From the NCBI GenBank assembly GCA_019638795.1, contig JAHBTB010000007.1, positions 55,964-119,963 on the forward strand: a DNA stretch of 64,000 bases, read 5' to 3'. The first letter of the stretch is position 1. Every line of letters starts with the position of its first letter. Below are positions 28,047-39,649 of the stretch, in pieces. A program made the position numbers and the translations under genes. Below the pieces are notes generated by a model. It did no database searches and had not been told where the DNA came from. It saw nothing but the letters and a program-made list of their open reading frames with translations. The stretch comes from Fimbriimonadaceae bacterium. Lineage in GTDB: Bacteria > Armatimonadota > Fimbriimonadia > Fimbriimonadales > Fimbriimonadaceae.

Positions 28047-29090
28047 TCATCCCACAAACGTCCGGTCTTCCATCGACGCCATTTGGTTGAGGGCGATCAG
28101 CCTGCGCTTCTCAAGCGGGCAGAGGTTCTGGTGTTCGCCAAAGTCGATGTTGACCTCGCGCATGACCTCGACCAAGTCGTCGTGGTGGAGCTGCGACTGG
28201 TACGCCACGCCGCTTCGGGCGCACACGGCCTGCGGCCCTTGTTCGCCTGCCTCCTTGTAGAAGGCGACGCCCAGTTGGGCGGGCCTTTGGATGACGTGGA
28301 AGAGCTTGCCGAACGGCATCCACAACAGGAGCAAGATGACGGTGAACGCGTGGATCAATGAAATGAAGCTGAAATGAGCCCCGCCCATCAACCGGTAGCT
28401 GGCCGTGATCATCAGACCGGTGATCGAGACGGCAAAGAGGAGGACCAGCGGTATCAGGTCGTTTTCAATCGACTGGACGGCGTGGGCCCCATAGTGGAAG
28501 ACCCGGCGGTGCATCGCAAAGCCGATCCCGACCAAGACGAGCGTCGCGCTGATGTTGAGGCCGTTGAACAGGAGCCAGCCCACCAAACTGTTGGGGTCGA
28601 ACGTGAACTGAGGGACGCCCATGAACTCGACCTGGTAGTTGAAGCCGTCTGGAGCCACGCCGAACTGGATCCACCCCCAGCTGAGGGGGAACGTGATGGC
28701 AAAGGCGAGCAAGCAGCCCCACGCCATGCCCATGTGGGCGATCCAGCGGGTCTGGCTCCTCTTTCCGATGAACTTTTGGATGACGATGTTGTCCCAGAGA
28801 AGCTTGACGAGCTTCACGACGTTTTTGACCAGCTTCTTCGGGTAGAGGAACAGCTTCCAACCTGCCTTGAAGAACCGCCACGTCGGCGGACGCTGGATCC
28901 ACATGAGATAGCGGTACGCAAAGGCGAATGCGGCAAAGATGGTCGCGGCGGTGTAGGCGGCCAGCGGTGAGTCAAACCGCCTGAGCATGCCTGACCCGAA
29001 ATACACCATGGCGAAGAGCCCCAGCGAGCACACGATGCCGCCGGTCATGGCGACGGCGACGGGATTCTTGGGTGGTTGCTTGGCGATCAC
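28047..29090 (-). CDS. NarI-like cytochrome b membrane subunit
   Basis: 347 residues with about six membrane helices. The C-terminal half carries paired His residues in IHAFTVILLLLWMPFGKLFH, matching the haem-b-binding pattern of nitrate reductase gamma subunits (NarI) and DsrM/HdrE relatives; RWIAHMGMAWG is a further candidate. It probably oxidises quinol and passes electrons towards the molybdoenzyme encoded at 35635. GTG at 29090 overlaps the stop of the AhpD-like gene; a longer frame upstream is only antisense-like sequence. Lies in the operon headed by the TATGA-N6-TCATA site at 29439. Confidence 0.75.
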   Translation of the reverse strand: MIAKQPPKNPVAVAMTGGIVCSLGLFAMVYFGSGMLRRFDSPLAAYTAATIFAAFAFAYRYLMWIQRPPTWRFFKAGWKLFLYPKKLVKNVVKLVKLLWDNIVIQKFIGKRSQTRWIAHMGMAWGCLLAFAITFPLSWGWIQFGVAPDGFNYQVEFMGVPQFTFDPNSLVGWLLFNGLNISATLVLVGIGFAMHRRVFHYGAHAVQSIENDLIPLVLLFAVSITGLMITASYRLMGGAHFSFISLIHAFTVILLLLWMPFGKLFHVIQRPAQLGVAFYKEAGEQGPQAVCARSGVAYQSQLHHDDLVEVMREVNIDFGEHQNLCPLEKRRLIALNQMASMEDRTFVG

Positions 29091-29404
29091 TGCTCTTCCT
29101 CCAATACCGAGTTGACCCAACCGAGGCAGGCCATCATGTTGGGGAACCCGACGGTAGGCGCGGCCAAAAGGGCCACGTGGCGGACCTCGTCGGCCGTGGC
29201 CCCCGCTTGGACGGCCTTGTGCGCGTGGCTCTTCGCACTGCCTTCCATCCGGGCCCCGCACGAGACCGCCAGTTTCACCAAGTTCCGCGTCCGTTCATCG
29301 AGCGGCCCGGCTTGCGCCACCGCTTCGCCATAGGCTTCGTAGGCCGATCCGACGTCCGGATAGTCCTCAAAGAACTTGACGTAGCGCTTGGGCAACCGTG
29401 CCAT
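29087..29404 (-). CDS. AhpD/carboxymuconolactone decarboxylase-like protein lacking the redox cysteines
   Basis: 105 residues of the helical AhpD-like fold. The motif region reads SCGARMEGSAKSHAH, where peroxidatic members have C-x-x-C followed by His; here both Cys of the pair are replaced (Met and Ser), although the Glu and His remain. It may therefore not act as a peroxidase. It starts at ATG 29404, preceded by CATACT and a 7-nt spacer (leaderless). Translationally coupled with the NarI-like gene, so a role in assembly or protection of the reductase is plausible (inference). Confidence 0.75.
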   Translation of the reverse strand: MARLPKRYVKFFEDYPDVGSAYEAYGEAVAQAGPLDERTRNLVKLAVSCGARMEGSAKSHAHKAVQAGATADEVRHVALLAAPTVGFPNMMACLGWVNSVLEEEQ

Positions 29405-29414
29405 ATTGACCAGT

Positions 29415-30032
29415 ATGTCGAGTCCAGACACCGGTCACTATGACAAACATCATATTGACTCGACTTTACGGCAATCAGTCCTGCTGACGGGGGGTGCCAG
29501 CCGCCGGATGGGCTTTGACAAGGCCTCTATCGTGGTCGACGGCGAGCCCCTGGGGCACCGCCTGGCCCGGCTCTTGCGTGCCGGAGGCTGGGAGCCCACC
29601 GTCCTAGGGGCGTCTCCCATCCATGGCTTCGGGTTCCAAGCGGACGCCCACCCGGGGTCGGGGCCGCTTGCCGCCCTACGGGAGTTCGTCCCGACCGCCG
29701 ACTTCGTGCTTGTCTTGTCCTGTGACGTCCCCAAGTTTGAACTCGGCCTTGCCGAGGTGCTAGAGGCGGAAATCGGCCGCCACGACGCCGCCCTGCCGGT
29801 CGTCCGTGGTCGACTCCAACCGCTTTGCGCGCTCTACCGGCGCTCCGCATGGCAGGCCTTGGGCACTATGGACGGCCCGCGTGTCATGGATTGGGTCGGT
29901 GGCCTGGACCACGTGACTGTGGACGAGGAGAGGATGGTGGGACGGGGTGTCCATTGGTCCGCGGCGGTCGGTGTCAATTCGCCGGAGGAGCTGGCGGACC
30001 TCCTTCATGAAAAGGCCGTCACGATGGACTGA
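29415..30032 (+). CDS. mobA: Molybdenum cofactor guanylyltransferase
   Basis: Attaches GMP to molybdopterin to make the guanine dinucleotide form needed by the DMSO-reductase family. The nucleotide-binding motif LLTGGASRRMGFDKA is near residue 24, followed by AHPGSGPLAAL and LVLSCDVPKF, as in MobA; 205 residues. The start is uncertain: ATG 29415 is only 10 bp from the divergent AhpD-like start and includes an operator, so a later non-ATG start is possible. Overlaps the convergent Crp-family gene by 28 bp. Confidence 0.88.
   Translation: MSSPDTGHYDKHHIDSTLRQSVLLTGGASRRMGFDKASIVVDGEPLGHRLARLLRAGGWEPTVLGASPIHGFGFQADAHPGSGPLAALREFVPTADFVLVLSCDVPKFELGLAEVLEAEIGRHDAALPVVRGRLQPLCALYRRSAWQALGTMDGPRVMDWVGGLDHVTVDEERMVGRGVHWSAAVGVNSPEELADLLHEKAVTMD
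29439..29454 (-). promoter_or_regulatory. Crp-family operator 1, TATGA-CAAACA-TCATA
   Basis: Perfect TATGA/TCATA arms with 6-bp spacer; centre 29446.5. With the -10 CATACT at 29417-29412 the transcript would begin at 29405, and the site would be centred at exactly -41.5 of the AhpD-like/NarI-like operon, the class II activator position. The site lies within the 5' part of mobA if mobA starts at 29415. Confidence 0.7.
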
Positions 30033-30703
30033 AGCCGAGGCCGGGAGAGGATGGCGATGCTCCGGTGCCGGGTCGCGATGAGTCCCTCCCTCTGCCACTT
30101 CGACGTCACGCGGATCGACGTTTCGACGGTGGTGACCGCGATGTCCGCCAGGGACTGCCGGGTGATTTGGATCGGCTCCCCCACGCCGTGCTCGCGGGCA
30201 TTGATTTCGTCGAGGCGGAGGAGCGCGAGAGCGAGGCGGACTTCGACCGAACCCGTCGCCATCATCGCCATGAACCCGCATGCGCCGAGCATCCGCGGGA
30301 CGATCACACGGGCGGCCGCCTGCAGCAACTGAGGGTCCTTCTGGGCGAGGGCGCGCCACGTGTGGCTGTCAACGGAAAAGACGTGGGCGTCGGTGAGGGC
30401 AAGGGCACTGAACGGGTGGGGGACGTTGCCGAACGTGGCCAGCATGCCCATGCAGTCGCCAGGCCCGAGAAGTTCGACGACCACTGACTTCTCGCTGGGC
30501 GTGCTCTGGGTGAGCCTCATGAGGCCGCTGTCGATCATCACAAAGTTGTGCGACGGCTCTCCACTCACCCAAAGGTACGTGCCCTGCGCGATCGTACGGT
30601 AGCGGCATGCGGCGACGAGCTGGTCAAGCGTCTCCGGTTGCATCCCGGCGAAGGCGTTGCACCGGGTCAAGACCTTACGAATCTGGTCGGCGGGGACATG
30701 CAT
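30005..30703 (-). CDS. Crp/Fnr-family transcriptional regulator
   Basis: 232 residues: cyclic-nucleotide-binding-type beta-barrel (about 15-130), long dimer helix, and winged helix with ITRQSLADIAVTTVETSIRV. Aligned to CRP, the recognition helix keeps Glu181 and Arg185 (the E and R of VETSIR) but has Val in place of Arg180, fitting a TATGA half-site instead of TGTGA. It lacks the Fnr cysteine cluster and the cAMP-binding PRSA motif, so its signal is unknown (NO, redox or nitrate are guesses). It sits between mobA and moaA, and four TATGA-N6-TCATR sites surround it. Confidence 0.88.
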   Translation of the reverse strand: MHVPADQIRKVLTRCNAFAGMQPETLDQLVAACRYRTIAQGTYLWVSGEPSHNFVMIDSGLMRLTQSTPSEKSVVVELLGPGDCMGMLATFGNVPHPFSALALTDAHVFSVDSHTWRALAQKDPQLLQAAARVIVPRMLGACGFMAMMATGSVEVRLALALLRLDEINAREHGVGEPIQITRQSLADIAVTTVETSIRVTSKWQREGLIATRHRSIAILSRPRLQSIVTAFS

Positions 30704-30811
30704 GGCTCGTCGAACAACTCACGGACACTGTGTATGGTCGGCCCGCAGACCGTCCATAGTACCGATTGAGCCAGGCCTGAGGTGCGAATTTGAACCGGCA
30801 GAGAAGAAAAC

Positions 30812-30827
30812 TATGATCAAGGTCATG
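30812..30827 (+). promoter_or_regulatory. Crp-family operator 2, TATGA-TCAAGG-TCATG, upstream of moaA
   Basis: Centre 30819.5, exactly 41.5 bp before the GTG of moaA (30861). A weak -10-like AAGAAT lies at 30850-30855. One arm ends in G instead of A. Placed to activate the moaA-moaE operon. Confidence 0.65.
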
Positions 30828-30860
30828 GGTCGTGGTCCGCGGGAAGGGCAAGAATAGGAC

Positions 30861-31853
30861 GTGGCGGACAAGACGGAGGTGCTCACCGACCGGTTCGGCA
30901 GGTTCCACGACTACCTGCGGGTGTCCATCACCGACCGGTGCAACTTCCGGTGCGTCTACTGCATGCCCGCCGAGGGCATCGCCTGCCACCAAAAGGAACA
31001 GGTCCTCACCTTTGAGGAGATCGAGCGACTTGTCCGGTTCTTTGTCAAGCGCGGGGTGCGCAAGGTCAGGGTCACGGGCGGTGAGCCGACTGTCCGCAAG
31101 GGCTACCTAGACTTGGTCGCGAACCTGGCGGGGATCGACGGCCTGGACGCGGTGACGATGACGACGAACGGGAGTTGCCTGGCCCGCGACGCTTCGGCGC
31201 TGAAACGAGTGGGGCTCAAATCCATCAACGTCAGCCTGGACACATTGCGGCCGGAGCGGTTCGAGAGCATCACCCGGCGTACCGGGCTGGCCCATGTCCA
31301 AGAGGGCATTGAGGCCGCCCTTGAGGTGGGCCTCGAGACCAAGGTGAACGTCGTCCTGATGCCTGGGGTCAACGACGACGAGCTGGTCGACTTTGTCGAA
31401 CTCACCCGTGACCGGCCCCTGACCGTCCGGTTCATTGAGTTCATGCCTTTTCTTGACAACGGTTGGAAGCCCTCGCGGGTGGTCTCGTCGGCCGAATTGC
31501 GGTCGCGGCTCGCGACAAACTACCGGTTGACCTTGGTACCAGGTCAACCGAACGATGTCGCCAAGGAGTACACCGTTGAGGGATTCGCAGGGAAGACGGC
31601 TTTCGTTTCCAGCGTGACCGAGAGCTTTTGCGCGGGGTGCAACCGCATCCGGCTCACCGCCGACGGGCAACTCAAGTCGTGCCTCTTCCTGCCGCCCAAC
31701 GTGTCCTTGCGAGACCTGGTCCGTGGGGGAGCTTCCGACGAAGAATTGGAGGCGGCCGTTGCCGAATGCCTCCGGAGCAAATGGCGGGCCCATCCTTCGA
31801 TGCAGGATTGGTCCCAGCGAGACCACTTAGCGATGGTGCAGATAGGCGGATGA
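30861..31853 (+). CDS. moaA: GTP 3',8-cyclase (radical SAM)
   Basis: First step of molybdenum cofactor synthesis: rearranges GTP towards cyclic pyranopterin monophosphate. The SAM cluster is C27-x3-C31-x2-C34 (CNFRCVYC); the second cluster is in CAGCNRIRLTADGQLKSC. GGEPTVRKG binds SAM. The protein ends in IGG, the double-Gly tail required in MoaA. 330 residues, GTG start without a ribosome site, consistent with a leaderless transcript. ATGA overlap with moaCB. Confidence 0.96.
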   Translation: MADKTEVLTDRFGRFHDYLRVSITDRCNFRCVYCMPAEGIACHQKEQVLTFEEIERLVRFFVKRGVRKVRVTGGEPTVRKGYLDLVANLAGIDGLDAVTMTTNGSCLARDASALKRVGLKSINVSLDTLRPERFESITRRTGLAHVQEGIEAALEVGLETKVNVVLMPGVNDDELVDFVELTRDRPLTVRFIEFMPFLDNGWKPSRVVSSAELRSRLATNYRLTLVPGQPNDVAKEYTVEGFAGKTAFVSSVTESFCAGCNRIRLTADGQLKSCLFLPPNVSLRDLVRGGASDEELEAAVAECLRSKWRAHPSMQDWSQRDHLAMVQIGG

Positions 31854-32752
31854 GAGACGTTTCCTTCAAGAACACGACCAAGCGGACGGCGTTGGCCCGG
31901 GCTGAACTGTTGGCCGGCGCGACGACGATCGACCGTGTGCAGAGGGGTGACACCCCCAAAGGCGACCCGGTGCCGGTGGCGAAAGTGGCGGCCATCCAGG
32001 CGACCAAGAAGACGACCGAATGGATCCCCTACTGCCACAACATCCCCATCGAACATGTCCGCGTCGACTTCAACTTTTTGGCCGACCGGATCCAGGTCGA
32101 CGTGTATGTCGTGTCGGTGGCGAAGACCGGGGTGGAGATGGAAGCGATCACCGCGGCTGCGGCCGCGGTGATCACCCTCTACGACATGCTCAAGGTCATT
32201 GACGACGACATGGAGATCGGGTCGGTGCGGTTGCTCTCGAAGACGGGAGGCAAGTCCGACCTGCCCAAGGCGGACGGGTGGTCGGCACTCGTCATCGTCA
32301 TGTCTGACCGGGTCAGCCGTGGGGAGTACGAAGACCGGAGCGGCCCCGTCCTGACCGAGGCCCTGTCCCGCCACGGGGCGGGCCAAGTCGCCAAGAAGGT
32401 GCTGGCCGACGATGGGGACGCCCTGCGGCGCGAAGTCCAAGAGGCCGTGGGCCGGGGCGTGAGCCTTGTCGTCGTCACCGGTGGCACCGGGGTCGGGCCT
32501 CGCGACGTGACCCCGCAGACCTTGACTGCGATGCTGGATGTCGAACTACCGGGCGTCGTGTCGGCCTTCATGAGTTACAGCCAAGCCCGCATACCGACCG
32601 CGATGCTGTCCCGACCGGTCGCCGGGATTGTGGGCCAGACCGTCGTCCTCGGCGTCCCCGGGAGCCCGGGGGCCTGCGAGGACGCGATGTCTTGCCTGCT
32701 TCCCAGCCTCCTCCACGTCCGCGAGATGTTGGCCGGGGGCGGTCACGGGTGA
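31850..32752 (+). CDS. moaCB: Fused MoaC-MoaB molybdenum cofactor protein
   Basis: 300 residues. The N-terminal MoaC domain (1-140), cyclic pyranopterin monophosphate synthase, has IPYCHNIPIEHV and KTGVEMEAITAAAAA. The C-terminal MoaB/MogA domain (about 150-300), which adenylylates molybdopterin, has VIVMSDRVSRGEYEDRSGP and VVVTGGTGVGPRDVTP. The fusion is known in some bacteria. Start ATG 31850 overlaps the moaA stop; GTG of moeA overlaps its stop. Confidence 0.94.
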   Translation: MRDVSFKNTTKRTALARAELLAGATTIDRVQRGDTPKGDPVPVAKVAAIQATKKTTEWIPYCHNIPIEHVRVDFNFLADRIQVDVYVVSVAKTGVEMEAITAAAAAVITLYDMLKVIDDDMEIGSVRLLSKTGGKSDLPKADGWSALVIVMSDRVSRGEYEDRSGPVLTEALSRHGAGQVAKKVLADDGDALRREVQEAVGRGVSLVVVTGGTGVGPRDVTPQTLTAMLDVELPGVVSAFMSYSQARIPTAMLSRPVAGIVGQTVVLGVPGSPGACEDAMSCLLPSLLHVREMLAGGGHG

Positions 32753-33912
32753 TCTCTTTCGCGGAGGCACAGCGGCTCGTCGTGGCCCGCCGTTTGCCCG
32801 ACCTGGCCGTCGAGGTGGGCTTGGGCCAGTGTCTGGGAAGGGTCTTGGCGGAGTCGGTCGCGAGTCCATTTGACTTTCCCCTTTTCGACAACTCAGCCAT
32901 GGACGGCTTCGCCGTCGGCGAAGGCGAAGGGGCGTGGCAAGTTGTCCGCGAAATTGCGGCTGGTTCCGCCCCTGGCCCGGAGCTCCGGGCCGGAGAGGCG
33001 GCCCGCATCTACACGGGTGCTCCCACGCCGCCGGGCACCTGGGCGGTAGTCCCCCAGGAGGACGCCGTCTTGGACGGCGACCGACTGACCGCAGGGCCAT
33101 TGAAGGAAGGCGCCCACATCCGGCGACGGGGTGAGGAGGTCGCGGCAGGCTCACTGATCGTCAACGAAGGTTGTCTTGTCACCCCGCCGGTCGTCGCCGC
33201 CCTGTCGTCCGTGGGGCTCGACCGCGTGAAGGTGGTCAGTCCTCCGGCCGTCGCGGTGCTGGGGACGGGGGACGAGGTCGTCGCGCCAGGGACGTCCTTG
33301 GGTGAAGGACAGATCTACGACTCTAACCTCGCCGCGGTCGGCGCGGTGCTGGGCTCGTGGGGGGCCACGGTGACGGCGCGTCATGTCGACGACGACCCCA
33401 AGGCGCTCGGAGACGCAGTCGGTGACTTGCTCGCCGACCATGACCTCTTGGTCACGACCGGCGGCGTCTCGGTGGGGTCGCGTGACTACATGATGGACGT
33501 CATGTCAGGGCAGTCGTTCGAGGTCCACTTCCACGGCGTCGCGATGAAGCCCGGGAAACCCCTGGCGTTCGCCACCCGGCCCGACGGCAAGGCGTGGTTT
33601 GGCCTCCCCGGCAACCCACTCTCCACCTGGACGGGACTCCTCATGTTCGTCGGCCCGTTCCTGGGCCACCCGCTTCGCATGGAACGGCGCACCCTTGCCG
33701 CCGGCCTTACCCGAAAGCCGGGAAGGGAAGAGTTCGTCCCCTTCTTTCTGGCTCCGACCGGAGAAGTGGACGTCAAGGACACGGTCGGCTCTCACGCAAA
33801 CTTCGGCCTGTTGGGTGCGGACGGCCTCGTCCAGATCAGTGCGTCAACGGCGGTGCTCAGCGCCGGTGACGAGGTTGAGACACACTGGTTTCCGTGGGAG
33901 ACCCGACGATGA
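32749..33912 (+). CDS. moeA: Molybdopterin molybdenumtransferase
   Basis: Inserts molybdate into adenylylated molybdopterin. 387 residues. Visible blocks: PLFDNSAMDGFAV (domain II/III), GTGDEVVAPG and LVTTGGVSVGSRDYM in the MoaB-like domain, and WFGLPGNPLSTW near the end. Starts at GTG 32749, overlapping the moaCB stop; a frame extended upstream would only read through moaCB. Ends in an ATGA overlap with moaD. Confidence 0.95.
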   Translation: MISFAEAQRLVVARRLPDLAVEVGLGQCLGRVLAESVASPFDFPLFDNSAMDGFAVGEGEGAWQVVREIAAGSAPGPELRAGEAARIYTGAPTPPGTWAVVPQEDAVLDGDRLTAGPLKEGAHIRRRGEEVAAGSLIVNEGCLVTPPVVAALSSVGLDRVKVVSPPAVAVLGTGDEVVAPGTSLGEGQIYDSNLAAVGAVLGSWGATVTARHVDDDPKALGDAVGDLLADHDLLVTTGGVSVGSRDYMMDVMSGQSFEVHFHGVAMKPGKPLAFATRPDGKAWFGLPGNPLSTWTGLLMFVGPFLGHPLRMERRTLAAGLTRKPGREEFVPFFLAPTGEVDVKDTVGSHANFGLLGADGLVQISASTAVLSAGDEVETHWFPWETRR

Positions 33913-34151
33913 AGCGGGTGACGGTCCAGTACTTTGCTGTCCTTCGGGAGCGGAGGGGCTTGGCCAGCGAGACGGTGGAGACGTCGGCGCCGACGGTCGG
34001 TGTGCTCGTCGGTGAGTTGGTCTCCCGGCACCGCCTCGGCCTTCCTCCGTCACTCATCCGGGCCGCCGTCGACCGCGAGTTCGTCGATGACGACTGTCCC
34101 TTGGCCGGTGGGGAGACTGTGGTCCTTGTCCCTCCGGTGGCCGGCGGATGA
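33909..34151 (+). CDS. moaD: Molybdopterin synthase sulfur carrier subunit
   Basis: 80-residue ubiquitin-like protein that carries the thiocarboxylate sulfur. Starts MKRVTVQYFAVLRERRG and ends VPPVAGG, with the C-terminal Gly-Gly that is activated by the MoeB domain of the next gene. ATG 33909 overlaps the moeA stop, and its own stop overlaps the next start (ATGA). Correct family size. Confidence 0.93.
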   Translation: MKRVTVQYFAVLRERRGLASETVETSAPTVGVLVGELVSRHRLGLPPSLIRAAVDREFVDDDCPLAGGETVVLVPPVAGG

Positions 34152-35572
34152 GGTTCAGCCTTTCTGACCAGCCCCTGGGCCTGCCGCCCGTCCATCTGCC
34201 CGGCGCAGGTGCCTTCGTCACATTCGAGGGAAGGATCCGCGACCACGCGGACGGGCGGTCCGTCCTCACCTTGGAGTACGAGGCGTATCCCGAGATGGCC
34301 GAACACCAGGGCGAGATGTTGGTCCAGGAAGCGATCGACCGGTTCGGACTCGTCGACGCCCGGGTCGTCCACCGGGTCGGTGCTCTGACCGTCGGCGATG
34401 TCGCGGTGCTGGCCCAGGCGGCCTCCCCCCACCGCCGCGAGGCGTTCGAGGCCTGTGAATGGCTCATGGACCAGCTCAAATGGCGGGTTCCCATCTGGAA
34501 ACGTGAGACGTACGCGGACGGGGTGTCGGAATGGGTCGGCGCTGGCGCACCTCCGGCGCCCGACGACGGCGACCGCATGTTCGCGAGGCAGGTCGTCTTG
34601 CCCGAAATCGGACCCAAGGGGCAGGAGCGCCTGGGCCAGGCGCGGGTGTTGGTCGTCGGTGCGGGTGGATTGGCCGCAGGGGCGGTGCCCGCTCTGGTCG
34701 GGGCGGGTGTCGGGACACTGGGGATCGTCGACCCTGACACCGTCGAAGAGACAAACCTCCACCGGCAGGTCCTGTTCACTGCATCGGACATCGGCCGGCA
34801 AAAGGCGGAGCGGGTCGTTGCTTTCGCCAAGCGGCTCCGCCCGTCCGTCCAGGCCCACGCCTTCCCTCACCGGTTGAGCCGGGAGAACGCCGCCCGCCTG
34901 GTCGCGGACTACGACTGGGTGCTGGACTGTACGGACTCCCTCGACACGAAGTTTCTCCTCGACGAAGCGTGCCGGGGTGCGGGCAAAACACTCGTCACCT
35001 CAAGCATCCACCAGTTTGAGGGGCAGGTGCTCGTCGTGAGCCCCGGTGGGCCGTGCCTCCGGTGTCTCTTCCCCGAGCGTCCCCCCGAAGAGTGCGTCGG
35101 GACCTGCGAGCAGTCGGGAGTCTTGGGCGTGACGCCGCTCACGTTCGGAGCGCTCCAGGCCAACGAGACGATCAAGGGCATCTTGGGGATGCCGGTCCTG
35201 GACCAGGACCTCCTTCTCTTCGACCTCCGCACGTTGGAGTCAGTCCGGCTCCACCGGCGGCCGAACCCGGACTGTGAGGGTTGTGGGCGGGGTGTCGCCT
35301 CCCCTGGCCAGGGTTTGGTCGTGGACCGTCTGCCCGCCGGTCACACCCTTGTGGACATCCGTGATCCCGACGAAGAGCCTCGGCTCACTGTCGACCACCT
35401 TGCCGTCCCGATGGAGGATTGCTACCAGATGGATTGGGACGGCCCGACCGTCTTCGTCTGTGCGAGCGGCCGTCGCAGCTACCGTCTCGTGGCCGACCTC
35501 CGGGCCCGGGGGGTACATCAGGTCTATTCTCTCCAGGGCGGGGTCGGTAACGCCAGTGCCCGTAAGGCTTAG
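34148..35572 (+). CDS. MoaE-MoeB-rhodanese triple fusion
   Basis: 474 residues with three enzymes of the sulfur-transfer step. MoaE (1-135), catalytic subunit of molybdopterin synthase: FVTFEGRIRDHADG, EYEAYPEMAEHQ, KWRVPIWKRE. MoeB/ThiF (about 145-385), MoaD-adenylating enzyme: VVGAGGLAAGAVPAL, NLHRQVLF, zinc pairs CLRC and CEGC, and ECVGTCEQSGVLG. Rhodanese (about 395-474): LVDIRDPDEEPR and the active-site loop CASGRRS, which would deliver sulfur. MoeB-rhodanese fusions are known (MOCS3 type); adding MoaE in front is unusual to my knowledge. Last gene of the cofactor operon. Confidence 0.92.
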   Translation: MRFSLSDQPLGLPPVHLPGAGAFVTFEGRIRDHADGRSVLTLEYEAYPEMAEHQGEMLVQEAIDRFGLVDARVVHRVGALTVGDVAVLAQAASPHRREAFEACEWLMDQLKWRVPIWKRETYADGVSEWVGAGAPPAPDDGDRMFARQVVLPEIGPKGQERLGQARVLVVGAGGLAAGAVPALVGAGVGTLGIVDPDTVEETNLHRQVLFTASDIGRQKAERVVAFAKRLRPSVQAHAFPHRLSRENAARLVADYDWVLDCTDSLDTKFLLDEACRGAGKTLVTSSIHQFEGQVLVVSPGGPCLRCLFPERPPEECVGTCEQSGVLGVTPLTFGALQANETIKGILGMPVLDQDLLLFDLRTLESVRLHRRPNPDCEGCGRGVASPGQGLVVDRLPAGHTLVDIRDPDEEPRLTVDHLAVPMEDCYQMDWDGPTVFVCASGRRSYRLVADLRARGVHQVYSLQGGVGNASARKA

Positions 35573-35585
35573 CCGCCGGTCGGTA

Positions 35586-35601
35586 TATGACTTGGGTCAT
35601 A
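35586..35601 (+). promoter_or_regulatory. Crp-family operator 3, perfect palindrome TATGAC-TTGG-GTCATA
   Basis: TATGA-N6-TCATA with a wholly symmetrical 6-bp arm each side; centre 35593.5. This is exactly 41.5 bp before the A of the ATG at 35635. It also lies 14 bp after the stop of the cofactor operon, so the reductase has its own activator-dependent promoter. Confidence 0.75.
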
Positions 35602-35622
35602 GCGACCCATTTTGTGGCCCCT

Positions 35623-35628
35623 CATAAT
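35623..35628 (+). promoter_or_regulatory. -10 box CATAAT of the molybdoenzyme gene
   Basis: Occupies -12 to -7 if the first transcribed base is the A of ATG 35635. No Shine-Dalgarno sequence is present, so the mRNA is predicted to be leaderless. Together with operator 3 it forms a canonical class II promoter layout. Confidence 0.65.
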
Positions 35629-35634
35629 CAGGGC

Positions 35635-37818
35635 ATGGCGAAGCTTCCTGTCCCGATTGACAAGCTCATCGACGAGTTCGGGCCGCACCCAGCCTACGTG
35701 CCCCCCGGGGGATGGCAGGGACGCGACGCCCCCGACAAGCTGGTCAAGACCCATTGCTGCTTCTGCGGCATGCAGTGCGGCATCCAGTTGAAGGTCAAAG
35801 ACAACAGCGTCATCGGCTTTGAGATTTGGGAGGAGTTCCCGTTTAACAAGGGCAAGTTATGCCCGAAAGGTGTCAAGCGGTACCTGCAAGGCGGCCATCC
35901 CGACCGTCTGATGGACCCGATGAAGCGGGTGCCGGGCAAGGGCTTTGTGCCGATTTCGTGGGAGGAGGCCTACAGCGAGACGGTCCGTGCGATCAAGGAC
36001 GTCCAGGCGAAGTACGGGAAGGACGCTGTCGCCGTGCTGTCCGGCGTCTCCCTTACCAACGAGAAGAGCTATTTGATGGGCAAGTTCGCCCGGCTGGGAG
36101 TGCAGACCGCTAACCTGGACTACAACGGGCGACTGTGCATGGTCAGCGCCGGTGCCGGCAACAAGAAGGCGTTCGGGCTTGACCGCGCCTCGAACTACTG
36201 GGAAGACATCGTCCACGCTGACGTGATCATGCTCGTGGGGACAAACGTGGCCGAGTGCTCGCCGATCACGACCGACTACATCTGGCGGGCCCGCGACCGT
36301 GGGGCGAAACTGATCGTGGTCGACCCGCGTGTGACCCCGATCGCCCGCACCTGCGACTTGCACTTGCCCGTCCTCTCGGGCACAGACACCGCCCTCCTGA
36401 CCGGGATCCTGCGGGTACTGATCGAAGAAGGTCACGTCAACGAGGAGTTTGTCGCCGAGCACACCTCAGGGTGGGAAGAGACAAAGGCGTCGGCCCTTGC
36501 CGTGTCTCTGGAGGAGGCAAGCCGCATCTGTGGCGTGCGGGTCGAGGACATCGTCAAGGCCGGGCGCATGTGGGGCCAAGCCAAGACCAGCTTCCTTATG
36601 CACGCCCGGGGGATCGAACACAGTTCCAAGGGCGTCGACAACGTCGTCTGTTGCATCAACCTTGTCCTGGCGACCGGCCGTATCGGCCGCAAAGGGTGCG
36701 GCTACGGCACCATCACCGGCCAAGGCAACGGACAAGGCGGCCGCGAGCATGGGCACAAGTGCGACCAGCTCCCCGGCAACCGCGACATCAGCAACCCGGA
36801 GCACCGCGCCTACATCTGCTCCGTGTGGGGATGCACCGACGAAGAGCTGCCCGCCCGGGGGCACACGGCGCCTGAGATCATGCAACTGATCCACGCTGGG
36901 GAGATCAAGGCCCTGATCTCCATCTGCTTCAACCCCTTGGTCTCCCTGCCCGACGCGAACTTCACTCGCGAGGCCCTGGAAAAGCTGGAGCACTACACCG
37001 CGATCGACTTCTTCCTGAACGAGACCGCGCACCACGCCGACATCGTGCTGGCCGGTTCGCTGCATGAGGAAGAAGAAGGGACCAGCACGAGTGCCGAGGG
37101 CCGGGTCATCAAGATCAACAAGGCCGTCGACCCACCGGGCAACGCCAAGGCCGACACTGAGATTATCTTGGAACTGGCCCGGCGGCTGGGGCGGGGGAAG
37201 TACTTTGACCATTTCAAGAAGTCGGAGGACATCTTCAACGAACTCCGCGTGGCCAGTCGAGGCGGCACCGCCGACTACTACGGCATCACCTACGAAAGGA
37301 TCGAGAAGGAGTTCGGTGTCTTTTGGCCATGCCCCGAACTCGACCATCCCGGTACCCCACGGCTATGGGAGGACCTGAAGTTCAAGACTCCCGACGGTAA
37401 GGCCCACTTCAACGCCGTCACATACCGCCCGCCGATGGAGGAGCCCGACGACGAGTACCCGGTCGTGCTGACCACGGGGCGCGTCGTGTCGCAGTACCTC
37501 AGCGGCACCCAGACCCGGCGCATCGGCGGTTTGGTCGACCTGTGTCCCGAGCCTTATGTCGAGATCCACCCGACCTTGGCCGAAAAGTACGGGTTCAACG
37601 ACCAGGACTGGATGCGCGTGCGAAGCCGGCACGGTGAGGTCGTCCTCAGGGCCAAGGTCGTGACGACGATCCGCCCGGACACCGTCTTCATCCCCTATCA
37701 CTGGCCCGGCCGTAGGTCGGCCAACAACCTCACCGTGCGCTCCTTTGACCCCGTGAGCGGTATTCCCGAGTACAAGCGGGCCTGTGTGCAGTTGGAGAAG
37801 TGCGGGCCGCCGGAATGA
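35635..37818 (+). CDS. Molybdopterin oxidoreductase, nitrate-reductase-like (NapA/NasA branch)
   Basis: 727-residue catalytic subunit with bis-MGD cofactor. The N-terminal 4Fe-4S ligands are C41-x2-C44-x3-C48 and C76. The predicted Mo ligand is Cys168 in YNGRLCMVSAG, the context found in Nap/Nas nitrate reductases. GQGNGQGGREHGHKCDQLPG and the C-terminal domain (VVLTTGRVVSQYLSGTQTRR) also fit. There is no Tat signal, so the enzyme is probably cytoplasmic. Substrate (nitrate or another oxyanion) is inferred. It overlaps the hemerythrin gene by 4 bp; partners Rieske, ferredoxin and NarI-like subunits are encoded nearby. Confidence 0.88.
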   Translation: MAKLPVPIDKLIDEFGPHPAYVPPGGWQGRDAPDKLVKTHCCFCGMQCGIQLKVKDNSVIGFEIWEEFPFNKGKLCPKGVKRYLQGGHPDRLMDPMKRVPGKGFVPISWEEAYSETVRAIKDVQAKYGKDAVAVLSGVSLTNEKSYLMGKFARLGVQTANLDYNGRLCMVSAGAGNKKAFGLDRASNYWEDIVHADVIMLVGTNVAECSPITTDYIWRARDRGAKLIVVDPRVTPIARTCDLHLPVLSGTDTALLTGILRVLIEEGHVNEEFVAEHTSGWEETKASALAVSLEEASRICGVRVEDIVKAGRMWGQAKTSFLMHARGIEHSSKGVDNVVCCINLVLATGRIGRKGCGYGTITGQGNGQGGREHGHKCDQLPGNRDISNPEHRAYICSVWGCTDEELPARGHTAPEIMQLIHAGEIKALISICFNPLVSLPDANFTREALEKLEHYTAIDFFLNETAHHADIVLAGSLHEEEEGTSTSAEGRVIKINKAVDPPGNAKADTEIILELARRLGRGKYFDHFKKSEDIFNELRVASRGGTADYYGITYERIEKEFGVFWPCPELDHPGTPRLWEDLKFKTPDGKAHFNAVTYRPPMEEPDDEYPVVLTTGRVVSQYLSGTQTRRIGGLVDLCPEPYVEIHPTLAEKYGFNDQDWMRVRSRHGEVVLRAKVVTTIRPDTVFIPYHWPGRRSANNLTVRSFDPVSGIPEYKRACVQLEKCGPPE

Positions 37819-38261
37819 AGCGGCACCCCGCCCTCGAACCGTTTTCGCGGGACCACAATGACGGCCTGATCCTGGCCAGGCACCTGGTCGGTAGGTCGCC
37901 CGACGCGGTCGAGGAGTTTGAGAAGGCTTGGTCGGACGAACTGCGCGACCACTTTGACGAAGAGGAGCGGTTGCTGGGTGGTTTGGCCGGGGACTTGGCC
38001 GGACAACTGAGGGACGAACACGCGGAGATCGCGCGCTTGGCCGAGGGATTGCCGGGATCAGGGGAACGGTTGGGAGCCGCCCTGGAGGCTCACATCCGTT
38101 GGGAGGAGCGGGTGCTCTTTCCTGCCATCGAAGCTGTTTTGGACAGCGCGGCTGCGGAAGCCCTGTCGCGTGAGACCCAGGCTCTGGAGCGTCGGCGGTG
38201 GACGGCGAACCCGATGCGCGAGCGTCTGGTCCGTCGTCGCCTTGGCGAGTCCGAGGGCTAG
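37815..38261 (+). CDS. Hemerythrin HHE-domain protein
   Basis: 148-residue four-helix protein with a di-iron type His/Glu pattern: FSRDHNDGLILARHL, ELRDHFDEEERLL, LRDEHAEIARL and AHIRWEERVLFPAIE. Hemerythrins bind O2 or NO, or protect iron centres. Starts at an ATGA overlap with the molybdoenzyme, so it is made together with it and may protect or repair the reductase against NO or oxygen (inference). Converges on the small membrane gene with 4 bp overlap. Confidence 0.85.
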   Translation: MKRHPALEPFSRDHNDGLILARHLVGRSPDAVEEFEKAWSDELRDHFDEEERLLGGLAGDLAGQLRDEHAEIARLAEGLPGSGERLGAALEAHIRWEERVLFPAIEAVLDSAAAEALSRETQALERRRWTANPMRERLVRRRLGESEG

Positions 38262-38491
38262 TTCATCTTGAGAAGTCGGTTCACCCCGGCGAGCATCCAC
38301 ACATTGACGGCGAGCAGACCGATGGTCAGGGCGGACGCTTGGACGACCATGTGGTTCCGGCCTGCCAAGAGGTTCTCGAGCACCATGACGAAGAGCCATA
38401 GCTGGCACATAAAGATGATCACGCTGAGCAGGACGAACCCGACAAAGACGGCCGCCTTCTGCCGCCGGCGGTGGTACTTCGGCTGGTACAT
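38258..38491 (-). CDS. Small two-helix membrane protein (DUF6755-like)
   Basis: 77 residues from ATG 38491, which overlaps the Rieske stop. A basic N-terminus ([13 protein letters not shown]) precedes two membrane helices (FVGFVLLSVIIFMCQLWLF and ASALTIGLLAVNVWMLAGV). Third gene of the ferredoxin-Rieske operon. Probably an accessory or anchoring subunit of the redox complex; no catalytic motif. Confidence 0.75.
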   Translation of the reverse strand: MYQPKYHRRRQKAAVFVGFVLLSVIIFMCQLWLFVMVLENLLAGRNHMVVQASALTIGLLAVNVWMLAGVNRLLKMN

Positions 38492-38988
38492 CAGTGCTCC
38501 CCTTTGACGACGCCGACCGCCCAAATCTCACCGTTGCGGTGCGCCAGCTTGATCTTGGGGATCGGATGGGGCGGCGGCCCCTGAAGGACTTTGCCGTCGT
38601 CGATGTCGAACGCCCCGTTGTGGCACGGGCAGTACAAGAGTTCTCGGCCGTCGTGGACCTCGTAGCCCACCGGACACGACAGGTGGGTGCAGCGACGGCT
38701 GTAAGCGACAAACTCGCCGTCGCGCTTTCTCACGAGGAGGCACATGTCGGTGGGGCGGGGATAGTTGAACGGTAACGCCGTCCCGGGCTGGAGGTCCGAC
38801 TCGTCACACACCTTGGCCGGGTCGAACCGCCGCTCGTCCTTCGGCACGAGGGAATAGGCGGCCAAGGCGGTGGTCCCCACTGCGATGCCCCCGCTGGCCA
38901 GAGTCATGAACCGGAAGAACTCCCTCCGGGTCACAAAGTGGTCGTCTTCCCATTCGATGGGGAAGTCTTCAGAGAGTTTGCTACTCAT
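38491..38988 (-). CDS. Rieske 2Fe-2S protein
   Basis: 165 residues. The N-terminus has a Tat-like segment, [10 protein letters not shown], then one hydrophobic helix ([20 protein letters not shown]) that likely stays as a membrane anchor. The cluster-binding motifs CTHLSCPVG and CPCHNGAFD carry the two Cys and two His ligands. Starts with ATG 38988, overlapping the ferredoxin stop. Links the quinol-oxidising cytochrome b and the iron-sulfur subunit in the proposed chain. Confidence 0.92.
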
Positions 38989-39599
38989 TGGTGGTGTGCC
39001 TCCACGGGGCGGGCGGTGGCGAGCAGGTCGGACTTCCTCACCACGGCGTCGGGCTTGACCTTCAGCCGTTGGGTGCCAGCCGGCATCATGAGGTTGACCT
39101 TGGTGTGGATGGTCCGGTTGCCAAAAATGAACTCGTTGATCGGCGTGCCGGCACGCTGGGCGGCGATCTCCTCGGGTGTGCCGAAGAAGAGAGCCCCCGA
39201 CGGGCAGACCGCCGCGCACATCGGTTTGAGTCCGACTGACGTGCGGTCGTAGCACATGTCGCACTTCATCATCTGGTCGACCTCGACGTTGTACTTGGGG
39301 ACCCCGAACGGGCAGGCGAAGACGCAGTTGGTGCAACCGATACACCGAGGTTTGAGCGAGCTCTGGACGACACCGTCCGGCGTCCTCTTGATCGCGTCAG
39401 CGGGGCAGACCATCGCACAGGCCGGGTCGTCGCAGTGCATGCAGATGATCGGCGTCGTCTGCACGGTGTCGTGCCGCTGGATCTGCTCCAGGTGGATCAT
39501 CGACATCCCCGGATGCGTGTCGCACTCTGCGCAGGCTTGGACGCAAGCGTTGCATCCGATGCACCGACTGGGATCGATATAGAATTGACGCTCGCTCAC
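38985..39599 (-). CDS. Four-cluster 4Fe-4S ferredoxin subunit (NarH/HybA/NrfC-like)
   Basis: 204 residues with four ferredoxin-type Cys groups: [42 protein letters not shown] and CDMCYDRTS...CAAVCP. This is the electron-transfer subunit typical of membrane-associated molybdoenzymes. Starts with GTG 39599; no separate leader is evident. First gene of the operon ferredoxin-Rieske-small membrane protein. The TATGA-N6-TCATG site at 39634 lies at about -42. Confidence 0.93.
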
Positions 39600-39633
39600 T
39601 CCTTCACTTTCGCACCGCCAAGCTCGTCCTCGC

Positions 39634-39649
39634 TATGATGCGCGTCATG
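39634..39649 (-). promoter_or_regulatory. Crp-family operator 4, TATGA-TGCGCG-TCATG
   Basis: Centre 39641.5, which is 42.5 bp before the first base of the ferredoxin GTG, or -41.5 if the message has a one-base leader. The -10 region (GAAAGT) is weak, as expected for an activated promoter. One arm differs from the consensus in its last base. Confidence 0.6.

Follow-up and report, generated by a model that had tools for sequence, protein, structure and literature searches.

The window analysed here is a stretch of 64,000 nt from a Fimbriimonadaceae bacterium (positions 55964-119963 of its contig), and feature coordinates are counted from its start. Between 28.0 and 39.6 kb, open reading frames (ORFs) and profile scans reveal a predicted nitrate-reduction gene cluster that includes a mobA-like gene and the gene of a Crp/Fnr-family regulator, hereafter called the 30005 regulator. 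Four sites matching TATGA-N6-TCATR lie in this cluster, each centred 41.5 or 42.5 bp from a start codon. We consider it likely that these sites are operators of the 30005 regulator, and that the regulator activates leaderless mRNAs of the nitrate cluster from them with class II geometry. The sites occur nowhere else in the assembly, their positions relative to start codons recur in relatives, and the assembly encodes a single protein with a Crp-type helix-turn-helix (HTH) domain scoring over cut-off.

In the mechanism that we propose, a dimer of the regulator would bind the operator, refined below to TATGAY-N4-RTCATR, and occupy the place of the -35 element, while RNA polymerase would recognise a -10-like hexamer some 29.5 bp away from the middle of the operator. 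Judging from this hexamer, transcription would begin about 41.5 bp from that midpoint, at the start codon or immediately upstream of it, and ribosomes would initiate on mRNAs without a leader. In this way the regulator would switch on four promoters in the predicted nitrate-reductase cluster. Nitrate, nitrite or nitric oxide is the likely signal, as suggested by the nitrate genes and by an nnrS-like gene that lies upstream of the regulator gene in relatives.

Four probable operators confined to one cluster

The four operators are as follows.
29439-29454, minus strand: operator 1, TATGATGTTTGTCATA in the direction of the CMD gene; 42.5 bp between its centre and ATG 29404
30812-30827, plus strand: operator 2, TATGATCAAGGTCATG; 41.5 bp between its centre and GTG 30861 of moaA
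35586-35601, plus strand: operator 3, TATGACTTGGGTCATA; 41.5 bp between its centre and ATG 35635 of the nasC-like gene, a position kept in relatives
39634-39649, minus strand: operator 4, CATGACGCGCATCATA in the direction of the 4Fe-4S gene; 42.5 bp between its centre and GTG 39599

We scanned the whole assembly (2,703,913 bases in 18 contigs, 99.19% complete) for exact TATGA-N6-TCATR and obtained 4 places, all of which are the four window operators. The reversed pattern, used as a control, gave zero exact matches. When one mismatch was allowed, the window contained 10 strand matches at 5 places against 0.81 expected, a number reached in 0 of 100 shuffles. The fifth place, a near-operator CATGATGGACGTCATG at 33489-33504, lies within the moeA-like frame and departs from the exact pattern. 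With up to two mismatches to TATGAN6TCATA, the assembly contained 185 places compared to 101 for the control; therefore, the strict pattern alone discriminates. A wider regulon in this genome, sought through these relaxed sites, was not retained, as they are inseparable from the control places.

A preliminary description of this DNA had reported the four sites and their distances of 42.5, 41.5, 41.5 and 42.5 bp. All four are present and the recomputed distances agree. Exact sites scattered at many random distances elsewhere in the genome would have spoken against a local regulon of a Crp-family protein, and the scan returned none outside the cluster. This uniqueness, together with the single HTH_Crp_2 protein over cut-off, supports such a regulon.

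The operator-to-start-codon distance recurs in relatives

We measured start-codon distances for 282 unique oriented site-sides at the loci in hand, considering ORFs of 150 codons or more. The distribution peaked at 41.5 bp (39 site-sides) and 42.5 bp (26), the other bins holding at most 13 and mostly fewer than 9. At position 6 all four window operators have Y, at 11 R and at 17 G, none of which belongs to the search pattern. The same preferences hold for the 65 site-sides whose start codon is 41.5 or 42.5 bp away (Y6, 99%; R11, 96%; G17, 75%), and the operator would be better written TATGAY-N4-RTCATR, frequently then G.

Each gene family was tallied using genes whose site has at least 9 of 10 matches, and a start at 41.5-43.5 was scored. 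Such a start was found for nasC (14/17), moaA (7/9), CMD (9/12), nnrS-like (11/14), narK1 (10/14), decarboxylase (2/3) and mobA (1/3) genes. None of the 10 narK2 genes had it, 7 of them having their start at 59.5 instead. Genes with an aligned N-terminus and no such site also exist (nasC, 9/26; moaA, 2/11; CMD, 8/20). In three genomes without a nasC operator (L112, L113 and L119), the bases upstream of nasC read as the end of a cytochrome-b gene, and nasC there would therefore share that operon. Among operon-internal genes, a site was found before none of the moaCB (0/8), moaE-ThiF (0/8), Rieske (0/17) and hemerythrin (0/9) genes, and before a single cytochrome b (1/20) and a single moeA (1/9) gene. 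Overall, the operator in relatives precedes nasC-like, moaA, ferredoxin, CMD, narK, nnrS-like and porin genes, and the comparison extends the local pattern to a conserved regulon.

Hexamers anchored to the operator and predicted leaderless starts

Hexamers resembling a -10 element, defined as xAxxxT sharing 4 or more of 6 bases with TATAAT, were sought in the promoters, and offsets were counted from the operator centre. The hexamer before each of the four window genes is listed below.
29412-29417, minus strand: -10-like hexamer CATACT (4 of 6) of the CMD gene; offset +29.5, 7 nt before the ATG
30850-30855, plus strand: weak -10-like hexamer AAGAAT (4 of 6) of moaA; offset +30.5
35623-35628, plus strand: -10-like hexamer CATAAT (5 of 6) of the nasC-like gene; offset +29.5, 6 nt before the ATG
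39606-39611, minus strand: weak -10-like hexamer GAAAGT (3 of 6) of the 4Fe-4S gene; offset +30.5

The two strongest, at 35623 and 29412, are those that had been singled out beforehand. In the 41.5 group, the hexamer is found at +29.5 in 19 of 39 cases, compared to 0-4 at the other offsets shown. Site-sides without a start at 41.5-43.5 (n=211) also have it at +29.5 in 33 cases, and elsewhere in 0-13 per offset. With a looser xAxxxT test, the 41.5 group had a spacer of 6 nt between hexamer and start codon in 27 of its 38 promoters. The 42.5 group had one of 7 nt in 15 of 25, with spacers of 4 (10 promoters) and 6 (8 promoters) competing. Therefore, the hexamer mostly keeps its place relative to the operator. 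The narK2 gene is a natural control for this anchoring: its hexamer is still at +29.5 (GACAAT in L075 and L079, similar in others), and its start codon at 59.5 lies 18 bp further.

Other promoter columns carry little information, with at most 0.24 bits each from -30 to -13. At positions 15-20, where a -35 element would fall, the majority bases fit TTGACA at T15 and G17 alone. Shine-Dalgarno-like 4-mers at spacers of 4-10 nt were found in 1 of 63 promoters versus 66 of 367 sampled genes. In 464 kb of the genome, TANNNT precedes candidate starts 21, 15 and 14 times at 6, 7 and 8 nt, respectively, and 1-9 times at other spacers; 50 of the 367 sampled genes have it 6-8 nt before the start, compared to 6-21 for other spacer triplets. 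Leaderless promoters therefore seem general here and not particular to the regulon, and look like a general habit of this genome.

The leaderless signature, which combines a -10 element some 6-7 nt ahead of the start with the lack of a Shine-Dalgarno sequence, was observed in the relatives and in the window set, and is clear in 2 of the 4 window promoters. The earlier proposal of class II geometry, with each mRNA beginning on the start codon or one base ahead of it, thus gains comparative support from the peak at 41.5/42.5 in relatives, the operator-anchored hexamer and the near-absence of Shine-Dalgarno-like 4-mers. We lean toward a broader reading as well, in which a subgroup of Crp/Fnr proteins with A at operator position 3 would run a nitrate regulon from leaderless promoters throughout the family, one contact setting the starts of both transcription and translation. 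The operator-to-start distance would then be kept across gene families and genera, with narK2 and its 18-base leader as an exception that keeps the promoter geometry.

The 30005 regulator and its association with the operator

The regulator is encoded between operators 1 and 2.
30005-30703, minus strand: Crp/Fnr-family regulator of 232 amino acids with recognition helix TTVETSIR; PF00027 and PF13545 over cut-off

Its sensor domain matches PF00027 with 58.6 bits (cut-off 27.5) and its HTH domain matches PF13545 (HTH_Crp_2) with 49 bits (cut-off 27). No other protein of the assembly exceeds the PF13545 cut-off, and four further matches remain below it (22-25 of 27 bits). Its own start codon is 116.5 bp away from the nearest operator.

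CRP makes specific base contacts through Arg180, Glu181 and Arg185 (PMC12531629). We counted the equivalent residues in 40 aligned Crp-type sequences, the window protein and paralogues included, the equivalence to CRP positions 181 and 185 being set by the E-T/S-x-I-R motif. As anticipated for the window protein, Val stands at the place of Arg180 in 38 of 40 sequences, while the Glu (E194) and the Arg (R198) are kept in 40 and 39 of 40, respectively. Residue 180 has been tied to motif position 3, with R180 paired to G3 and Ser or Pro to T3; Val with A3 is not among the residue-motif pairings in the portion of that work available to us (PMC1274295).

In the ligand pocket, the alignment places Met and His where chain 4byy, of the cAMP-binding type, has Glu and Arg. 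We take this Glu and Arg to be the residues that hold cAMP. The regulator has Cys at positions 15, 33, 84 and 142 only, and no conserved cysteine cluster was found among its homologues in the alignment. With this pocket and no such cluster, neither cAMP nor oxygen sensing of the FNR type is likely; from its residues, cAMP appears an unlikely signal. In relatives, the regulator gene lies directly downstream of an nnrS-like gene that carries the operator, suggesting autoregulation in those relatives and a nitrogen-oxide signal. Among four nnrS-like proteins tested, one exceeds the PF05940 cut-off (28.1 of 28 bits) and the others score 12.6-23.8 bits.

Motif counts were compared across 61 genomes. 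The 33 genomes with a regulator homologue (E<1e-20) average 14.2 motif strand-hits versus 4.6 in the 28 others (p 2e-7), and the reversed control gave no difference in the same genomes (1.9 vs 2.3, p 0.63).

Points against the proposed reading and alternative explanations

Several observations weigh against the reading that we prefer. The site-to-start counts take in near-identical orthologues and are not independent. A start at 41.5-43.5 is found in a minority of the best sites of the porin (3/7) and dimethyl sulfoxide (DMSO)-II-type (2/8) genes, and of the 4Fe-4S gene (3/10), for which the tally rule takes a stronger neighbouring site in some loci and a direct scan finds the 42.5 site in seven sources, the window among them. 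Two of the four window promoters, those of moaA and the 4Fe-4S gene, have weak hexamers displaced by 1 bp. The hexamer of the 42.5 group is spread over three offsets, +29.5 (5 of 26), +30.5 (6 of 26) and +32.5 (7 of 26). G17 (75%), together with T15, could belong to a -35-like TTG and provide weak -35 help. Of the 28 genomes that lack a close regulator homologue, three are motif-rich (16, 26 and 26 hits), and in two of these the control counts (10 and 15) exceed all others in the table. Finally, several relatives encode by the cluster a second Crp-type paralogue with 27-29% identity and a TTVES-x-IR helix, so that more than one protein could read the sites there. This paralogue may share the operators; in several relatives it lies beside the 4Fe-4S gene, with 28-29% identity, at the coordinates below.
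L075, 2004-2705: second Crp-type paralogue
L077, 1600-2301: second Crp-type paralogue
L080, 10491-11192: second Crp-type paralogue

The regulator and operators could act as proposed on mRNAs with short leaders of fixed length, transcription beginning some bases before the start codon. The two weak hexamers in the window would allow this, as would the starts at 44.5-47.5 in some orthologues. However, the spacing of 6 nt in 27 of 38 promoters (41.5 group) and of 7 nt in 15 of 25 (42.5 group, in which competing spacers fit), along with one Shine-Dalgarno-like 4-mer in 63, makes short leaders rather unlikely.

Repression, with the protein lying over the -35 region and blocking RNA polymerase until a signal frees it, appears decidedly unlikely. 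A site at -41.5 overlaps the place of the -35 element in this case as well, and the frequent G17 would suit a TTG. However, T15 and G17 are the only majority bases shared with TTGACA at positions 15-20, and a spacing to the hexamer that is exact to the base pair is needed by class II activation, not by blocking.

It is also quite improbable that a protein other than the 30005 regulator reads the four sites. Candidates would be the four sub-threshold HTH_Crp_2 matches of the assembly, and some relatives have two Crp-type proteins by the cluster; against this, the single protein with a Crp-type HTH over cut-off is encoded between two of the sites, and motif counts track the presence of its homologues across the 61 genomes. 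As for short palindromes that happen to lie near start codons within one cluster, a 16-mer in which 6 bases are free is not long and has 185 relaxed places, but the confinement of all four exact assembly matches to one cluster at a near-constant start distance and the recurrence of this layout in relatives leave chance a negligible probability, ruled out by the whole-assembly scan with its reversed control and by the distance peak in relatives.

Genes behind the operators

The genes of the predicted cluster are listed below, by operator.
29087-29404, minus strand: CMD-family protein, first gene behind operator 1; PF02627 over cut-off, ATG 29404
28047-29090, minus strand: cytochrome-b-like membrane protein, behind the CMD gene; PF02665 at 20.7 vs 22.9 bits, below cut-off
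30861-31853, plus strand: moaA, first gene behind operator 2; TIGR02666 over cut-off, GTG 30861
31850-32752, plus strand: moaC-moaB fusion gene; NF002947 over cut-off
32752-35572, plus strand: other molybdenum-cofactor genes, moeA-, moaD- and moaE/thiF-like; open frames named by reading alone
35635-37818, plus strand: NasC-like molybdopterin enzyme, first gene behind operator 3; PF00384, PF01568 and PF04879 over cut-off
37800-38261, plus strand: hemerythrin-domain protein; PF01814 over cut-off
38985-39599, minus strand: 4Fe-4S electron-transfer subunit, first gene behind operator 4; PF13247 over cut-off, GTG 39599
38491-38988, minus strand: Rieske protein; Rieske-type NCBIfam models, every one below cut-off
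38258-38494, minus strand: DUF6755 protein; PF20540 over cut-off

The best NCBIfam model of the NasC-like protein is NF047855 (NasC), at 810.6 of 1100 bits. Because this score is below the cut-off, nitrate reduction by the cluster is only predicted. Its relatives are named assimilatory nitrate reductase by one source; unlike NasC, it is encoded together with a 4Fe-4S subunit, a Rieske protein and a cytochrome-b-like protein, partners that suggest a respiratory role. Among its best 120 of 7998 homologues, most of the named ones belong to Fimbriimonadaceae, Fimbriimonadales or Armatimonadetes, and single ones are named Methanoregulaceae archaeon and Chthonomonadaceae bacterium, a distribution that makes Armatimonadota the likely phylum.

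The cluster of relatives (L075, L077 and L082) also contains narK1, narK2 and the nnrS-like gene. The best model of its two transporters is NarK (185 and 300 bits, cut-off 311.7). In the window's assembly no NarK was found over cut-off (best 56.8 of 311.7 bits), and the nnrS-like gene had no match at E 1 in a search run without a positive control. A cytoplasmic nitrate reductase here would thus be without its usual transporter. The preliminary description held that all genes of one redox system are encoded together. This is too strong, because in relatives the same operator also precedes narK1, narK2, nnrS-like and porin genes.

Comparison with known systems

Precedents exist for Crp/Fnr regulons, for class II activation and for leaderless genes. 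What is new is the operator, its likely reader, and the fixed layout from operator to start codon across the regulon.

The closest parallels are NnrR and HcpR (PMC1274295), Crp/Fnr regulators of nitrogen-oxide genes that have palindromic operators and genes beside their targets and, like the 30005 regulator, lack FNR-type cysteines. The NnrR regulon includes nnrS, and here an nnrS-like gene adjoins the regulator gene in relatives. However, the NnrR operator ctTTGcgnnnncgCAAag differs from TATGAY-N4-RTCATR, and the HcpR operators are wTGTGAnnnnnnTCACAw or wyTTGACnnnnGTCAArw, whereas the third position here is A. No layout anchored to start codons is described for NnrR or HcpR in the accessible part of the same source.

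E. coli CRP resembles the 30005 regulator in its cNMP (cyclic nucleotide)-type sensor domain, an HTH with Glu and Arg contacts and a TGA-N6-TCA core (PMC12531629). It differs by its Arg180, which reads G3 of TGTGA, where the 30005 regulator has Val and its operator A3, and by the Glu/Arg of its cAMP pocket in place of Met/His. FNR differs by an N-terminal cysteine cluster for its Fe-S sensor, which the 30005 regulator lacks.

In Deinococcus-Thermus and Actinobacteria, leaderless genes (PMC12340547 and PMC3160421) likewise have a TANNNT-type -10 element by the start and no Shine-Dalgarno sequence. Beyond these, the -10 element here lies at a fixed distance from an operator throughout a regulon. 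Searched by term, PMC12340547 gave no hit for CRP, activator or Armatimonad, and PMC3160421 gave none for activator or Armatimonad. In our searches of the open-licence literature, a set without most subscription papers, we did not find the regulon described, nor any promoter work on Armatimonadota, nor a TATGA/TCATA site linked to nitrate and CRP.

Taken together, the operator, the protein likely to read it and a fixed spacing by which sequence alone can predict where transcripts begin would give the phylum a testable regulatory code. The regulon also offers a natural promoter set for studying activator control of leaderless mRNAs, and joins predicted nitrate reduction, nitrate transport and molybdenum-cofactor genes in one predicted regulon across many uncultured genomes.

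Additional observations

The origin of the regulator was also considered. Plasmid records gave matches below 60% identity, the five listed being at 28-30%, and viral contigs gave no regulator matches; both searches were uninformative about a mobile origin. A scan of named genomes for the regulator gave one match, at 25%.

The mobA-like gene (29388-30032) has a candidate upstream ATG that, if used, would place operator 1 at or within its N-terminal coding part. Operator 1 was considered as a promoter toward this gene and not counted, the mobA sites being without a fixed layout (1/3 at 41.5-43.5).

The Rieske protein (38491-38988) has an N-terminal stretch, TRREFF, resembling a twin-arginine translocation (Tat) signal, and the NasC-like protein has no signal peptide by eye. 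These two proteins would then sit on opposite sides of the membrane.

A second molybdopterin enzyme is encoded near the cluster of relatives and is operator-bearing in some (L077, 7309-9780; L087, 8059-10503; L094, 219-2657). Among NCBIfam models, the L077 protein scores best, though below cut-off, with that of the type II DMSO reductase alpha family. A pyridoxal-dependent, tyrosine-decarboxylase-like gene with an operator at 41.5 in two relatives (L083, 3777-5669; L090, 12338-14314) is an unexpected member of the regulon.

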